Of a stretch of DNA of 34,101 nucleotides, positions 12,236-19,098 are shown piece by piece. This DNA comes from Candidatus Epulonipiscium sp. (GTDB lineage Bacteria > Bacillota > Clostridia > Lachnospirales > Defluviitaleaceae), in the NCBI GenBank assembly GCA_012521175.1, contig JAAYMW010000174.1, forward strand, positions 1-34,101, written 5' to 3'. Position 1 is the first letter of the stretch. Every line of letters begins with the position of its first letter. The notes beneath the pieces were generated by a model. The model worked only from the letters and a program-made list of their open reading frames with translations, was not told where the DNA came from and did no database searches. Both the position numbers and the translations under genes were made by a program.

Positions 12236-12253
12236 TAAGTCAAGCGGCTTACT
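12234..12253 (+). terminator. Terminator of the Spo0E-like gene
   Basis: AGTAAGTC-aagc-GGCTTACT followed by TTTTT. Confidence 0.7.
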
Positions 12254-13061
12254 TTTTTATTTTTAAACTTGCCTGTTTATTGTCTTTTATAGGTCTTTGT
12301 CTGCCTTCATGATCGATATAATAATTTTTCTTTAAAATAAGCTGGGAAATAGGAACAAGCTCGTAGCCCTGTTGTTTTAATCCTGTGATAATCGTATCTA
12401 GTGCATCCTTTGTGTACTTTGCATTATTATGGAACAATATAATAGAACCGCTTCCGAGATGCTTATTATTTAATACCTGTTTAATTAAAGGGTCTGTTCC
12501 AAACTCTTTCCAGTCAAGGGAATCCACATCCCACTGAATCGAGTAATAGCCACATTCTTCGGCTGCTTCAATGACTGTATTATTGTATTCACCAAAGGGT
12601 GGTCTAAATAGGTTCATATCAATACCTGTAAGCTTTTTGACTGCTTCATGGGCTGCCATAATTTCTTTTTTGCTCCCCTCTTTTGACAGCTGACCCATAT
12701 GCGGATGTTTGTTGGAGTGGTTTCCTATATCATGCCCTGCTGCAGCGATTTTTTTGACCTCTTCCGGGTATTTTCTCACCCAGTCCCCAACTAAAAAGAA
12801 GGTAGCCTTTACACCATGTTTGTCGAGGATTTTTAGGATATCGTCCGTATCGTCTGCGCCCCAGGCTGCATCAAAACTTATAGAGATTTTATTATCTCCT
12901 CTTTCTACACAGTAAATGGGAATCTTCCTTTGCTGTTTGCTGGTAACATTATTAAAAACTTCCGTAACATAGGGTTTTGACAACCCCATAGAAAGCATAA
13001 TCAAAAGAAATGCACAAACTATTTTAATAATGCCTTTCATATGGATGACGTAAATTTTCAT
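12249..13061 (-). CDS. Polysaccharide deacetylase, PdaB-like sporulation type
   Basis: Start revised to MKIYVIHMKG; ISFDAAWGADDTDDILKILDKHGVKATFFLVGDWV, AGHDIGNHSNKHPHM, LFRPPFGEYN, QWDVDSLDWK. Confidence 0.87.
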   Translation of the reverse strand: MKIYVIHMKGIIKIVCAFLLIMLSMGLSKPYVTEVFNNVTSKQQRKIPIYCVERGDNKISISFDAAWGADDTDDILKILDKHGVKATFFLVGDWVRKYPEEVKKIAAAGHDIGNHSNKHPHMGQLSKEGSKKEIMAAHEAVKKLTGIDMNLFRPPFGEYNNTVIEAAEECGYYSIQWDVDSLDWKEFGTDPLIKQVLNNKHLGSGSIILFHNNAKYTKDALDTIITGLKQQGYELVPISQLILKKNYYIDHEGRQRPIKDNKQASLKIKK

Positions 13062-13068
13062 AAGAAAA

Positions 13069-13102
13069 TCCCCCCTCTTCATATTTTTATTCAGAGGGAG
13101 GA
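13069..13102 (-). promoter_or_regulatory. Hairpin sequestering the Shine-Dalgarno of the pdaB-like gene
   Basis: Minus strand TCCTCCCTCT-gaataaaaatatga-AGAGGGGGGA (one U-G pair); the 3' arm contains the SD 8 nt before the ATG. Confidence 0.55.
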
Positions 13103-13119
13103 TCATATATTCTGCAATC

Positions 13120-14076
13120 TTATAATAATTGAAGCAAATCCTTTGTTATATTCTTATACGTTCCATCTGAAAGATTCTCAAGGGATGCGTAAGCTTTACG
13201 AATAAATTTATCCTTTAACGCCTTAGTTTCTTTTAAGGCGCTCGTTTCTTTTACTAAGGCAATCACCCGATTAATCTCATTTTTTTCTATATGCTCTTTT
13301 TTGCTTAAAAGCTCTTTTATTTCATGTTTTACTTTATCATCCTGTAAAGCAAATAAAAGCGGAAGAGTATAAATACCTTGTTTAATATCATTACCCATAG
13401 GTTTTCCTTCTATTTTCTCCGTAGAAGTATACTCTAAAAGATCATCTCGTATTTGAAATGCCATCCCGAAAGAAAATGCAAATTTTCCAAGAGCATTTAG
13501 GGTTTTTCTCTTGCATTTTCCTTCATAAGCGCCTACCAAAATACTCATTGCAAACAGCACTGCTGTTTTTCTATAGATTCTTTTTAAGTAATCCGTTACA
13601 GTAACATCGGTATTATACTTGATTTCATATTGATCAATTTCACCTTCACAAATTGCTTTAACCCCTTGTGCTATTCTGTTTAAATGCTCAAAAGAAGTTT
13701 TGTTTGAAAGTATCGTAAAAGCTTTTGTAAACAAGTAGTCCCCTGTATAGACAGCCATATCCCGTCCATATTTTGCCTGAACCGTAGTTTTCCCTCTTCT
13801 AAGTTTGGATTCGTCAATAATATCGTCGTGAACAAGAGTTGCCGTATGAAGCAGCTCTATTGCTGCCCCAAGGGGAATAATCTTTTCAGGGTCATATTTG
13901 CCGCATTTCGCTCCTAATATCACAAAAGCCGGTCGTAATCTCTTGCCTCCGGACTCTATTAATTCTAAACTAATCTCTGTTAGAATTTTTTTTCTGGAGG
14001 GAACAGCTTTTTTCATATAATTTTCTACTTTAATTAATTCCTCATGTATTTCTGGATAAGCTTCCCACAAACTCAT
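13120..14076 (-). CDS. Polyprenyl diphosphate synthase (HepT-like; DmkB-like in EET context)
   Basis: GGKRLRPA, LVHDDIIDESKLRRG, FQIRDDLLEY. Confidence 0.92.
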   Translation of the reverse strand: MSLWEAYPEIHEELIKVENYMKKAVPSRKKILTEISLELIESGGKRLRPAFVILGAKCGKYDPEKIIPLGAAIELLHTATLVHDDIIDESKLRRGKTTVQAKYGRDMAVYTGDYLFTKAFTILSNKTSFEHLNRIAQGVKAICEGEIDQYEIKYNTDVTVTDYLKRIYRKTAVLFAMSILVGAYEGKCKRKTLNALGKFAFSFGMAFQIRDDLLEYTSTEKIEGKPMGNDIKQGIYTLPLLFALQDDKVKHEIKELLSKKEHIEKNEINRVIALVKETSALKETKALKDKFIRKAYASLENLSDGTYKNITKDLLQLL

Positions 14077-14600
14077 CTAATTTCTTCCCTTCTTAGTTGT
14101 TTCGCCCACTCTGCTTTTTCAAAATGCTGATACAGAAAATTTGTACTGATACCTACGAAATATCCTGTAATTACCCCGGATATCAAAAGAATCGGAAGGT
14201 AAAAATATATCCTTAAATCTTGAATAACAAAAGCTGCTACCAGCAGCTGCCCTGCATTATGAAAAATTGCTCCACAAATACTTATGGAGCCCAGTCCCAA
14301 ATAATTGTTAAAGTATTTATAGAGTAAAATCATCACAATATTACTAAGCATTCCTCCAACGATACTAAAGAAAAATGCCGAGACACTTCCTCCAAAAATA
14401 GAACCCATCACTGTTCTTAAAATCACTATAATGAGTGCTTCTTTCCATCCTAAAAACAATAATGCAAAGAGTGAAATGATATTTGCCAGTCCCAATTTTA
14501 CCCCTGGAAAAAGAACCGGAATTTGCCCCTCTATAATATAAATAATCAGTGCAATCCCAACCAATAAAGACAAAAATACCAATCGTTTTGTTCTTACCAT
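14073..14600 (-). CDS. Gx transporter family / heptaprenyl diphosphate synthase component I-like membrane protein (EetB-like)
   Basis: LVGIALIIYIIEGQIPVLFPGVKLGLANIISLFAL; probable start MVRTKRL; ATGA overlap with hepT. Confidence 0.87.
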   Translation of the reverse strand: MVRTKRLVFLSLLVGIALIIYIIEGQIPVLFPGVKLGLANIISLFALLFLGWKEALIIVILRTVMGSIFGGSVSAFFFSIVGGMLSNIVMILLYKYFNNYLGLGSISICGAIFHNAGQLLVAAFVIQDLRIYFYLPILLISGVITGYFVGISTNFLYQHFEKAEWAKQLRREEIR

Positions 14601-14663
14601 AATAACCACCATTCTATCTATCTTTGGCATACTAAAGCACTTACTCTTCCCCCACAATTACAA

Positions 14664-15047
14664 TCAATAAGTTACCTGATCCAGTTCCTCATTGATTCCT
14701 TCAATATGAATGGATAATTTATGCGGTAGGCATACTGCTATATCTCCCGGTTCCGACAGCCATCCCGAATGTACGCAAACCAAATCAGGGCAATTGGCAT
14801 CAATAAAGCGAATCTTTCCTTTCTCCACCCGGATAATATTAAATTTTCCGTTTTCTTCTTCAATTCTCCATTCTCTTGGTTCTTCCACTGAATTTAAATC
14901 AATCGCTTCTATGACTTTTTGATTTTGAATGATTTTGGCATTGAGGGTTTTTCCTTGATTAAAATATTTATACAGTCTCACAGCCAAAGAACTAACCACA
15001 AGCAAACCCAATACGCCTATTGCAACAATTTTATCCCCTTTTTTCAT
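14664..15047 (-). CDS. NusG domain II-containing membrane-anchored protein (EetA-like)
   Basis: N-terminal TM segment; CPDLVCVHSGWLSEPGDIAVCLPHKLSI motif. Confidence 0.87.
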   Translation of the reverse strand: MKKGDKIVAIGVLGLLVVSSLAVRLYKYFNQGKTLNAKIIQNQKVIEAIDLNSVEEPREWRIEEENGKFNIIRVEKGKIRFIDANCPDLVCVHSGWLSEPGDIAVCLPHKLSIHIEGINEELDQVTY

Positions 15048-15067
15048 TGTACTCTCCTCTTTACTAT

Positions 15068-16108
15068 CTAGTTGGCCAGTTGAAACTCTTCATTTTCTAG
15101 TTTAAATCGGTCTTTTAATCCCGATGTCACATAAATTTTTTTATCTTCTGTAACAATGACTGCTTCTACATTCTCTAAGCTTTCTATTAAAGCCATCCCT
15201 TTTTCTAATCCTAAAACATAAACACTGGTTGAAAGGGCATCCGCATCAATAGAAGCATCTGTAACAATGGTGCTGCTTATAATACCGGCTTCTGCAGGAT
15301 AACCTGTTTTAGGATCGATAATATGATGGTACCTTTTTCCGTTTTCCATAAAATATCTTTCATAATTGCCAGAAGTTACAATAGTTTCATCCACAACTTC
15401 TATCACTGCAATATGTTTTCCCCTTTCATCCAAAGGATTCTGAACGCCTATGCGCCAGGGAGAGCCATCCAACTTGCTTCCTAAAGTAACAACATTTCCT
15501 CCCAAATTAACAAAAGCGGTTTTTATCCCATTTTCTTTTAGTATCTTTTTGACTTCATCTCCTGTATAGCCTTTAGCAATAGCGCCTAAATCAATAGCTT
15601 GTCCTTTTTTATTTAATTTTACCTGTTGCGTATTTTTATCCAGGATTACGTCTTTATAATCCACTAAATCAAGCAAATCGTCGATCTCTTCCTGTTTGGG
15701 AACTCTCGCATGTTCTGTTCCAATTCCCCATAGTTTGACAATCGGTTCAATCGTAAGGTCAAAAGCACCCTCCGTTAAATCACTATAGTGTTTAGCTTTC
15801 TCAATAACATAAAATGTATCCGGGCTAATCTGAACGAAATTTTTTCCGGAATTCTCATTTATTTGGATAACCTCGCTTTTTTCTTGATTAACCGTCATTT
15901 TATTTTCTATTTCCTGAATTCTTTTGGCTGATTCTTCTATGGCCTTTTTGGCCTTATCTTCGTCTCCATCATAGATTTGTATCTGAATGACTGTGCCAAG
16001 GGCATAAATTTCTTCCTTAATTACGGTATTCGTTCCTTTATTGTTAGCACATCCGGAAAGAATACTTACTATTGTAATTAAGAAAATTAAAGATATATTT
16101 TTTTTCAT
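15068..16108 (-). CDS. apbE: FAD:protein FMN transferase (ApbE/FmnB-like lipoprotein)
   Basis: Lipobox LSGCANN; DLGAIAKGYTGDEV, HHIIDPKTGYPA, TDASIDADALSTSVYVLG. Confidence 0.94.
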   Translation of the reverse strand: MKKNISLIFLITIVSILSGCANNKGTNTVIKEEIYALGTVIQIQIYDGDEDKAKKAIEESAKRIQEIENKMTVNQEKSEVIQINENSGKNFVQISPDTFYVIEKAKHYSDLTEGAFDLTIEPIVKLWGIGTEHARVPKQEEIDDLLDLVDYKDVILDKNTQQVKLNKKGQAIDLGAIAKGYTGDEVKKILKENGIKTAFVNLGGNVVTLGSKLDGSPWRIGVQNPLDERGKHIAVIEVVDETIVTSGNYERYFMENGKRYHHIIDPKTGYPAEAGIISSTIVTDASIDADALSTSVYVLGLEKGMALIESLENVEAVIVTEDKKIYVTSGLKDRFKLENEEFQLAN

Positions 16109-16151
16109 TGATTCACCAACTTATATTTTATTCTCAACTTGTTTATTATAT

Positions 16152-16181
16152 ATTATATCGTTTATCACTAATAAATATCAA
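16152..16181 (-). promoter_or_regulatory. Putative promoter of the apbE operon (TTGATA-N18-TATAAT)
   Basis: Minus strand TTGATATTTATTAGTGATAAACGATATAAT. Confidence 0.6.
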
Positions 16182-16210
16182 TTGACAATTTTTAAAGGAA
16201 GGCATGAAAA

Positions 16211-16240
16211 CAATTCCCCAAGAAAACTCTCGGGGAATTG
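16211..16240 (-). terminator. Terminator of the FMN-binding lipoprotein gene
   Basis: Minus strand CAATTCCCCGAGA-gttt-TCTTGGGGAATTG-TTTTC. Confidence 0.8.
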
Positions 16241-16259
16241 AAAATAATAATTGTATTTA

Positions 16260-17099
16260 TTATTTTGCAGCTTCTAAAGCTTTTTTAGCCATTTCTTTGA
16301 AGCTTTCGGAACCATGAGTTGCACCAGTTACAGCATCCACTGCATCAACATCTTGTTTTTCAACAAGAGCTGCTTCTAATTGTGGGAATGCTTCTGCTGG
16401 TCCTATGTTAACTTTTTCTTTCATTCTCTTGTTGTAATCTTCATCAGCTTGTTTGGATGCGCCTTCTTCATTAACTTCATCGTAATCAACTGCAGCGATT
16501 TTACCATCTTTTACTTCGATAGTAATCACTGGTTTCCAACCACGTTCATCCGCTTCACCTTCAGCTGTATAAGTACCATCTTTTAAAGCTCCTGCTGCAT
16601 CTGCTGCTACTGGTCCTGCTGCTAAAGCTTTCTTAACCATTTCTTTAAAGCTTTCAGAACCATGAGTTGCACCAGTTACAGTATCAACAGCATCAACATC
16701 TTGTTTTTCAATTAACGCTTGTTCTAATTGTGGGAATGCTTCTGCTGGTCCTATGTTAACTTTAGCCTTCATATTGTTGTTGTATTCTTCGTTAGTTTCT
16801 TTTAATGTACCTTCTTCATTGATTTCATCATAATCAACTGCAACGATTTTACCATCTTTTACTTCAAGAGTAATGATTGGTTTCCAACCGTGGTCATCAA
16901 AAGCATCGCCTTCTGCTTTGTAAGTACCATCAGCTAATGCTGATTCAGTGGTAGCTTCTTCTTTTGTTTCTGCTGCTTGTTCTGTTTGAGTTTGTGTTGT
17001 ATCAGCAGGTTGTTTAGTTTCTTCTTTCTTTGCACCGCATCCAGTTAATGCACTAAATGATAACCCTAATGCTAATGCTAATGCTATAATTTTTTTCAT
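16260..17099 (-). CDS. Lipoprotein with two tandem FMN-binding domains (PplA-like)
   Basis: Lipobox ALTGCGAK; two copies of ~104 aa, each with DxVTGATHGSESFKEM. Confidence 0.9.
   Translation of the reverse strand: MKKIIALALALGLSFSALTGCGAKKEETKQPADTTQTQTEQAAETKEEATTESALADGTYKAEGDAFDDHGWKPIITLEVKDGKIVAVDYDEINEEGTLKETNEEYNNNMKAKVNIGPAEAFPQLEQALIEKQDVDAVDTVTGATHGSESFKEMVKKALAAGPVAADAAGALKDGTYTAEGEADERGWKPVITIEVKDGKIAAVDYDEVNEEGASKQADEDYNKRMKEKVNIGPAEAFPQLEAALVEKQDVDAVDAVTGATHGSESFKEMAKKALEAAK
16269..16580 (-). repeat. FMN-binding domain repeat, copy 2 (aa 174-277)
   Basis: KDGTYTAEGEADERGWKPVIT...DAVTGATHGSESFKEMAKKAL. Confidence 0.9.
16620..16931 (-). repeat. FMN-binding domain repeat, copy 1 (aa 57-160)
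   Basis: ADGTYKAEGDAFDDHGWKPIIT...DTVTGATHGSESFKEMVKKAL. Confidence 0.9.
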
Positions 17100-17144
17100 T
17101 ATAGCGCCCTCCTCTTTGTAATTAAGAATTTTTGTTACTATGAC

Positions 17145-17173
17145 ATTGTATTATCCCGACATTTTTTTGTCAA
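17145..17173 (-). promoter_or_regulatory. Strong SigA-type promoter of the FMN-binding lipoprotein gene
   Basis: Minus strand TTGACA-N17-TACAAT. Confidence 0.75.
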
Positions 17174-17346
17174 AGTTAACATAATTAATTTTTGTATGCT
17201 AAAGTTTAAACATCTCCATCATTCTCAGTAATCCTCTCTATTTCGTTGGTTTTTAAATTATACTTTTAAAAAATTTTTTGATATAATTATCATGACTTAA
17301 TGTGCTTTGAGTTGTTAATAATATGTCTTATAAGGAGGAAGATACC

Positions 17347-19098
17347 ATGAGCAAAAAAATAGTAATCCTTGGTGCAGGTTATGGTGGAATACAAGCTGCA
17401 CTGACCCTAAACAAAAAGAAAAAGAAGTCCGATGATGTTGAAATATATATCATAGATAAAAATCCACATCATACGCTTCTTACAGAACTTCATGAAATTG
17501 CAGGAAATCGTATTGAAGAAGATGGAGTATTGGTTCAATTAAGAGATATTTTCCAGTATACTGATGTAAATGTTATCTTAGATTATATTGAAGATATCGA
17601 TTTTGAAAAACAAGTATTAAAATCAGAAAACAATACTTATCCCTATGACTACCTTATTATGGGGATAGGAAGCGAACCTAATTTCTTCGGCATAGAGGGA
17701 ATGAAAGAACATAGCTTTACGCTGTGGTCCCATGAAGATTCCTTAATTATAAAAGAACATATTTTAAAGATGTTCCAAAAAGCTTCTTCTGAAAAAGATC
17801 CTGCAAAAAGAAAATCTTACCTTACTTTCGCTGTAGGTGGCGGTGGATTTACCGGAACCGAAATGATTGGAGAACTGGCTTTTTGGGTAAATGATTTGGC
17901 AGAACAATATAATGTCAATAGAAATGAAGTAAGACTCATTCTTATTGAAGCATTACCTAATATACTTCCAATTTTAGACGACTCTTTAGTTGAAAAAGCT
18001 GTAAAATATTTAAAGAATAAATTAAAGGTAGAAATCCTTACAAATTCCAGAATTACAAAAGTGAACGAAACATCTTTCGTACTAAACGATAAAGATGTTA
18101 TCGAATCTCATACACTAATCTGGACCGGTGGTGTACAAGCTAATCGTTGTTTCACTGAACTAAAGCTTGAAAAAGGAAGAGGCGAAAGAGTTTGCGTAGA
18201 TGAATATACAAGAACTCCTTATAAGAACGTATTTGCAGTGGGTGACTATGCCCTGTTTATAACAAAAGACAATAAACCTCTACCTGCACTGGTTGAAGCT
18301 GCTTTGGAAACAGGAACAATTGCAGCCAAAAATATCTTAAACCTTGTTCGCAATAAAGAATTGGAAAAAGGCGATCCAAAACTTCACGGCGTAATGGTTT
18401 CTCTTGGTAAAAACTATGGGGTTGCTGACTTGATGGGTATCAAATTATCCGGATTCCCTGCAATCTTCATGAAACATTTGGTTAATATCCATTATCTCTT
18501 TGGCATTGGCGGATTTGAGCTGATTGTAAATTATTTAAAACATGAACTCTGGGGCGTAAGACATAAAAAAGGCATCATCCACAGCCATTTGGAAAGACTA
18601 ACACCTACATTCTGGTTAGTGCTGTTAAGACTATATCTGGGATATATGTGGATTATGTCCGGTCTTGAAAAAGTTAATGGTGGATGGTTTGAATATGAAA
18701 TGCTTGCCGGAAGCAATGCAGACGCAACTACTGGAGCTTCCCTCATGCAGTTAGTTTCAGATCATACCCCTGGCTGGTATGCATGGATTGTTGACACACT
18801 CATCGTTCCTAATGCCATGTTATTCCAAAAAATCATTGTTCTTACAGAAGTAGGACTTGGACTTGCATTTATTACAGGTACCTTTACATTTATCGCAGCG
18901 ATTGTATCCATTGGTATGAATATTAACTTCTTACTTTCTACAGGACTTAACGATTTATGGTTCTTAGTTTCTTCCATTCCAATGTTAGGTGGAGCCGGAA
19001 GAGCATTTGGCGTAGACCATTATCTTATCCCATATCTTATGAGACAATGGAGATATTTCGTAAACAATAAAAAGATTAAAATTAATCTATGGAAATAA
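17347..19098 (+). CDS. Type II NADH dehydrogenase with C-terminal multi-TM DoxX-like extension (Ndh2-type)
   Basis: VILGAGYGGIQAAL FAD motif; VGGGGFTGTE NAD motif; VFAVGDYA; membrane extension after ~aa 420; start revised to MSKKIVILG with SD AAGGAGG. Confidence 0.88.
   Translation: MSKKIVILGAGYGGIQAALTLNKKKKKSDDVEIYIIDKNPHHTLLTELHEIAGNRIEEDGVLVQLRDIFQYTDVNVILDYIEDIDFEKQVLKSENNTYPYDYLIMGIGSEPNFFGIEGMKEHSFTLWSHEDSLIIKEHILKMFQKASSEKDPAKRKSYLTFAVGGGGFTGTEMIGELAFWVNDLAEQYNVNRNEVRLILIEALPNILPILDDSLVEKAVKYLKNKLKVEILTNSRITKVNETSFVLNDKDVIESHTLIWTGGVQANRCFTELKLEKGRGERVCVDEYTRTPYKNVFAVGDYALFITKDNKPLPALVEAALETGTIAAKNILNLVRNKELEKGDPKLHGVMVSLGKNYGVADLMGIKLSGFPAIFMKHLVNIHYLFGIGGFELIVNYLKHELWGVRHKKGIIHSHLERLTPTFWLVLLRLYLGYMWIMSGLEKVNGGWFEYEMLAGSNADATTGASLMQLVSDHTPGWYAWIVDTLIVPNAMLFQKIIVLTEVGLGLAFITGTFTFIAAIVSIGMNINFLLSTGLNDLWFLVSSIPMLGGAGRAFGVDHYLIPYLMRQWRYFVNNKKIKINLWK

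Follow-up and report, generated by a model that had tools for sequence, protein, structure and literature searches.

A probable flavin-based extracellular electron transfer locus in Clostridia labelled Candidatus Epulonipiscium, with a quinone head group most likely obtained from other organisms

Can these anaerobic Clostridia hand electrons from NADH on to extracellular acceptors, and from where would they obtain the quinone for doing so? Both questions are raised by a locus in a window of 34,101 nucleotides (the whole stretch of DNA analysed), which is contig 1 of a MAG of 2.15 Mb in 220 contigs that is 79% complete. Among named public genomes, its closest relatives are likewise MAGs and carry the label "Candidatus Epulonipiscium sp."; their Ndh2 identities are 94% and 76%. 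An initial annotation had likened six adjacent genes at 13120–19098 to the extracellular electron transfer (EET) locus of Listeria, and profile searches confirmed all six at these coordinates, with strong family matches. The locus is very probably a flavin-based EET (FLEET) locus that works with a naphthoquinone head group taken from other organisms. The EET assignment is supported by family models, by gene order in eight genomes, by the Ndh2 tree and by synteny with Listeria; what is read directly from the sequences here is the identity of the genes, their motifs and synteny, and which proteins are present or absent when curated cut-offs are applied.

Gene content, layout and control signals

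The features of the locus and its immediate surroundings are as follows.

12249..13106 (-): polysaccharide deacetylase (PF01522, 2e-37; synteny), outside the EET set
13120..14076 (-): dmkB, polyprenyl diphosphate synthase (PF00348, 4e-68), with a 4-bp overlap with eetB
14073..14600 (-): eetB, PF07456 membrane protein with predicted ECF S-component fold (PF07456, 4e-49; ECF_trnsprt, 9e-6)
14664..15047 (-): eetA, membrane-anchored NusG_II domain (PF07009, 5e-31)
15068..16108 (-): apbE (fmnB), FAD:protein FMN transferase lipoprotein (PF02424, 3e-97)
16152..16181 (-): promoter-like site of the apbE operon, TTGATA-18-TATAAT (11/12 bases match)
16211..16240 (-): intrinsic terminator downstream of pplA (stem of 13 bp with 6 GC pairs; T tail)
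16260..17099 (-): pplA, two-domain FMN-binding lipoprotein (PF04205 twice), each domain with one VTGAT flavinylation motif
17100..17346 (no strand): divergent pplA/ndh2 control region, conserved in three species
17173-17145 (-): pplA promoter-like site, TTGACA-17-TACAAT (11/12 bases match)
17347..19098 (+): ndh2, type II NADH dehydrogenase with a C-terminal DoxX-like membrane extension (Pyr_redox_2, 1e-37; DoxX, 2e-5)

All frames of the EET locus are intact. On the minus strand, pplA is followed by apbE-eetA-eetB-dmkB, and ndh2 runs divergently on the plus strand. Comparison of gene order across eight family genomes showed the block, unchanged in arrangement and orientation, in G001, G002 and G004–G007; in G003 and the more distant G014 it is spread across contig breaks, and in G013 it is kept without a pplA match. 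This conservation of order and strand argues against a chance grouping. The deacetylase gene begins 13 bp after dmkB, an adjacency kept across the family, and is probably co-transcribed with the dmkB operon. A plasmid search with near-DNA matching gave no match, and an Rfam scan of the window found nothing.

The three units proposed at the outset (apbE-nusGII-gx-hepT, here apbE-eetA-eetB-dmkB; pplA alone; and divergent ndh2) hold. As proposed, pplA stands alone between its own terminator, a stem-loop lying 3′ of the gene, and a promoter-like site upstream; in the pplA-apbE gap, the strong terminator is followed by the promoter-like site of the apbE operon. The region has no excess of promoter-like sites (40 versus 39.4 expected from shuffles), so the case for the pplA site comes from its sequence match and from the conservation of both hexamers in three species of the genus. 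The start of ndh2 is probably the ATG at 17347 rather than position 17323, where the ORF opens, since a good Shine-Dalgarno sequence, AAGGAGGA, lies just upstream of the former.

The nearest solved relatives of Ndh2 are type II NADH dehydrogenases (best PDB relative 4nwz, 1.5e-76), and the protein is 74–94% identical across the family. A published operational definition of EET calls for an NADH dehydrogenase with a transmembrane helix no more than five genes from an ApbE or FMN_bind protein with a signal or lipidation site (PMC8238504), and in the window Ndh2, with its DoxX region, adjoins pplA (lipobox LTGC) and apbE (LSGC). Within the flanks available for the 80 best Ndh2 relatives, neighbours included dmkB (67/80), apbE (54/80), eetA (48/80), eetB (47/80), pplA (44/80) and dmkA (34/80). 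In the Ndh2 tree, the window protein falls among Ndh2s of EET loci, in a supported clade with those of Thermotalea, Anaerosolibacter, Fervidicola and Thermosediminibacter (Clostridia). It had been conceivable that these genes belong by phylogeny with unrelated ApbE/FMN-binding systems; the tree, for Ndh2, and Listeria FmnB as the closest solved structure, for ApbE, speak against this.

The proposed synteny comparison with known EET loci supports the assignment: in Listeria, too, a homologous Ndh2 is surrounded by this gene set. Shared features are the gene families, the divergence of pplA and ndh2, and a two-site PplA (PMC8906456, PMC9973259). The arrangement differs: in Listeria, dmkA-apbE-pplA is divergent from ndh2-eetA-eetB-dmkB, whereas in the window eetA-eetB-dmkB stands on the apbE/pplA side rather than behind ndh2, and dmkA is unlinked. 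Also unlike Listeria, no FmnA (the ECF-T subunit) was found among the window proteins scanned, and DHNA synthesis was not found in the genome. Closer in layout are Thermotalea metallivorans, Anaerosolibacter and a Clostridia MAG (L117–L120), which share the half-layout dmkB-...-apbE-pplA divergent from ndh2 and whose Ndh2s belong to the clade of the window's protein at 55–59% identity; unlike in the window, eetA and eetB were not detected beside apbE in L117, L119 and L120.

Flavinylation, flavin export and a candidate redox site

PplA matches model NF041941 over nearly its full length at 2e-72 and 244 bits, a score below the curated cut-off of 325, and has a PDB relative in 3o6u (5.6e-24), a PplA-domain protein. 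Two FMN domains are characteristic of the window's genus, and a single one is found in other genera of the family (four other members). The closest PDB chain to ApbE is 7esa (2.9e-81), which is Listeria FmnB (PMC8906456), and alignment to that protein shows SGxYERY, HHIxDPKTGYP and the Asp of SIDxDxLST all to be kept.

Exactly one ApbE was found per genome in 13/13 genomes searched, and that of the window genome lies in the EET locus. Its rnf operon is on contig C165, without an apbE there, and no rnf genes occur within the ApbE cluster, as they would in an Rnf-associated one. The FMN_bind proteins found in the genome are RnfG, PplA with its two sites, and a small lipoprotein on contig C97, all with [ST]GAT motifs. 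Since the genome has a sole ApbE and its rnf operon has none of its own, the ApbE of the locus should serve both Rnf and EET, flavinylating RnfG and the C97 lipoprotein besides PplA.

The eetB start is probably the ATG at 14600 rather than the TTG at 14657 where the ORF opens, because the alignments of most homologues begin only near residue 20. A profile search with EetB reaches the riboflavin S-component RibU (3p5n, E=0.009), and an AlphaFold2 model (pLDDT 88) matches RibU structures with a Foldseek probability of 1.00 and TM of 0.63–0.65, at modest E values of 0.006–0.01. These profile and fold matches rule out the prenyl synthase subunit of the old Pfam name. EetB is predicted to be an ECF-S type subunit of a flavin exporter, consistent with work in Listeria, where EetB is an FAD-binding subunit required for FAD export (PMC9973259).

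In EetA, residues C86, D88, C91 and C106 are invariant in 35 homologues from EET loci, forming a CxDxxC-x14-C motif, and H109 is present in 28/35. The modelled fold is that of Lin0431/DUF1312, that is, of NusG_II proteins; Lin0431 of Listeria innocua, the nearest solved one, is without the first two cysteines. As a candidate site, the motif may serve in redox chemistry, metal binding or disulfide formation. A Rieske-like reading (C-x-D...C-x-x-H) was dropped, as an Asp stands in place of the Rieske His, H109 is not invariant, and the fold search returned NusG_II/DUF1312 proteins and no Rieske. EetA of Lactiplantibacillus plantarum has been proposed as the electron carrier of a flavin-dependent route (PMC9888254), and deletion of eetA in Listeria gave no EET phenotype (PMC9973259).

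The supply of quinone

DmkB keeps both Asp-rich motifs, DDIID and DDLLE, with D215 changed to Glu (76 sequences compared). The initial annotation was correct that the window holds no DmkA, and the profile search elsewhere in the genome that it suggested located the enzyme split over two contig ends: one half lies at an end of contig C37 and the other at an end of C143, covering positions 1–162 and 163–299 of one DHNA polyprenyltransferase model. Each of seven family members has a single, unbroken copy of DmkA, which carries the conserved Asp motif NNxCDxxxD. Both DmkA and DmkB, the pair looked for in an EET system, are therefore present, dmkB in the locus and dmkA unlinked.

Synthesis of DHNA by the organism itself, which is not strictly defining for EET, was not found, no match for MenB, MenD or MqnC exceeding its cut-off. 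The quinone pathway on which the EET assignment had been made to depend is thus present as regards DmkA and was not found as regards the DHNA-making enzymes. No family member had MenB or MenD over the cut-off, and no MqnA-type match (PF02621) exceeded it in the window's family; these absences are judged by profile cut-offs, which a non-homologous DHNA route would escape. Among sub-threshold candidates, a MenD-like match in G001 (166 bits, cut-off 244) was rejected, as its neighbours are a transposase and a gene resembling an NAD-dependent epimerase and it is without a counterpart in sister genomes, and PF02621 matches of 31–36 bits in G021, G032 and G042 look like cross-matches to periplasmic binding proteins.

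The wider pattern was surveyed in 295 genomes of the order. EET-type Ndh2 was found in 44/295 and DmkA in 38/295, with both in 33, a co-occurrence significant by genome (Fisher p=5e-29) and by genus (p=6e-14); since the genomes are related, these p-values treat them as more independent than they are, and counting by genus is the more cautious choice. MenB exceeded its cut-off (342.7) in two of the 295 (G081 and G162), neither with Ndh2 or DmkA, and in 0/44 of the Ndh2-bearing genomes; among the 88 genomes with a match, the MenB-like matches of the other 86, at 79–163 bits, were rejected as other crotonase-family proteins. MqnC was found in 0/295.

Since DHNA synthesis was not found in a genome that has DmkA, the head group is most likely scavenged from other organisms. 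A precedent is the FLEET system of L. plantarum, which, like the window genome, has the DMK-finishing enzymes without DHNA synthesis and scavenges the head group (PMC8837199, PMC10746273). Unlike in L. plantarum, DHNA dependence is here a prediction, made for anaerobic Clostridia and across all 44 Ndh2-bearing genomes of the sample. Two genomes with closely similar Ndh2 loci, G013 (80% complete) and G014 (100%), gave no DmkA match, so such loci may sometimes do without a quinone; L. plantarum can largely dispense with dmkA and dmkB (PMC9888254).

Competing readings and biological meaning

For homologues it is established that Ndh2 oxidises NADH, EetB exports FAD and FmnB carries out flavinylation, and the role of PplA is established as well. 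For the organism of the window we infer the electron flow, its acceptors, the scavenging of DHNA and the sharing of ApbE. Ndh2 would oxidise cytosolic NADH and pass the electrons to a polyprenylated naphthoquinone (DMK/MK), made by DmkB and the unlinked DmkA from a head group that is most likely scavenged. From there, electrons would move to FMN held covalently by PplA, a lipoprotein of the cell surface, and then to acceptors outside the cell, for example Fe(III), flavins or humics, with EetB exporting the FAD that ApbE/FmnB would use to flavinylate PplA.

Given the single ApbE per genome and an rnf operon (G000:C165) without one, apbE-eetA-eetB-dmkB might instead serve mainly flavin export and flavinylation for Rnf, with ndh2 and pplA an accessory NADH sink and no respiration of outside acceptors. 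Rnf-associated ApbE/EetB systems of Clostridia do use the same FAD exporter and ApbE families, and in this class eetB and rnf often co-localise (PMC9973259). Unlike in those systems, the locus here holds ndh2, pplA and dmkB, with rnf on a different contig; in all family members compared, the neighbours of the operon are ndh2 and pplA and not rnf, dmkB is without a known role in Rnf maturation, and DmkA tracks Ndh2 across the order. An Rnf-centred role of this kind seems improbable, and it is not mutually exclusive with the EET assignment. We consider it quite improbable, too, that Ndh2, as a generic NADH:quinone oxidoreductase of the common quinone-reducing NDH-2 type, feeds a quinone pool for another terminal reductase, such as cytochrome bd, with PplA incidental. 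Both the DoxX-type extension of Ndh2 and the divergent position of pplA are traits of EET loci, and with RnfG, PplA and the small lipoprotein the only FMN_bind proteins found, no flavinylated fumarate-type reductase with an FMN_bind domain was found.

The lack of MenB, MenD and MqnC matches over cut-off might also mark the locus as a relic, unable to work in nature without DHNA synthesis. Against this stand the intact frames, the high Ndh2 identity within the family, and the conservation of catalytic motifs and flavinylation sites; moreover, L. plantarum, also without DHNA synthesis, performs EET on exogenous DHNA or riboflavin (PMC8837199, PMC9888254). Decay of the locus is hardly credible. 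A bolder combination, which we regard as rather unlikely as a whole, is that EET in the order runs without a self-made classical naphthoquinone, through guild-wide cross-feeding of DHNA or an unrecognised head-group pathway feeding DmkA, and that EetA, through its invariant motif, acts between Ndh2 and flavins as a redox carrier based on a metal or on thiols.

The favoured reading, a FLEET locus with a scavenged head group, places the system in a known kind, with a layout other than that of Listeria and an order-wide dependence to test. The Listeria-type EET module is extended to an uncultured family with named relatives among MAGs labelled Candidatus Epulonipiscium, EetA gains a concrete candidate redox site, and one ApbE is suggested to serve both Rnf energy conservation and EET. 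Across the order, the testable prediction is that genomes with Ndh2 mostly keep the quinone-finishing DmkA (33/44) and are without MenB and MqnC. If this is true, these Clostridia would need DHNA from their neighbours in order to respire outside acceptors.

A conserved cysteine motif in EetA

Alignment of EetA homologues from EET loci showed that C86, D88, C91 and C106 of the window protein (eetA, 14664-15047) are unchanged in 35/35 sequences, forming a CxDxxC-x14-C motif that is followed by PH in most of them. The first two of these cysteines are missing from the nearest solved paralogue, Lin0431 of Listeria innocua, and no assigned function for the motif was found in the literature searched.

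FMN-binding lipoproteins

The number of FMN domains in PplA differs across the family: two in members of the window's genus (window 16260-17099) and a single one in G004-G007 (L083-L086), which suggests that one domain arose by internal duplication or was lost in this family. In the PplA-like protein of locus L090 (G021:C2, 7811-8725), both sites read AGVS instead of [ST]GAT, making flavinylation doubtful. Besides RnfG and PplA, the window's own genome encodes a third FMN-binding lipoprotein at G000:C97:20263-20745 (= L108:4264-4746), which is 160 aa long and has an SGAT motif. Its solitary gene has a PilZ-like neighbour on one side and a PAS/GGDEF/EAL-type regulator on the other, an arrangement also kept in family member G001 (L109), and the product is possibly an additional ApbE substrate.

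Quinone-related genes in relatives

G001 also encodes a MenD-like ThDP enzyme of 580 aa, in locus L045 (G001:C1:2786054-2790268). Neighboured by a NAD-dependent epimerase-like gene and a transposase, and with no counterpart in sister genomes, it is probably a MenD paralogue within a surface-sugar cluster.

In relatives G013 (L088) and G014 (L011/L087), Ndh2 shares 66-71% identity with the window protein and is accompanied by apbE-eetA-eetB-dmkB. Neither genome yielded a DmkA match, and these loci could represent a quinone-independent form.
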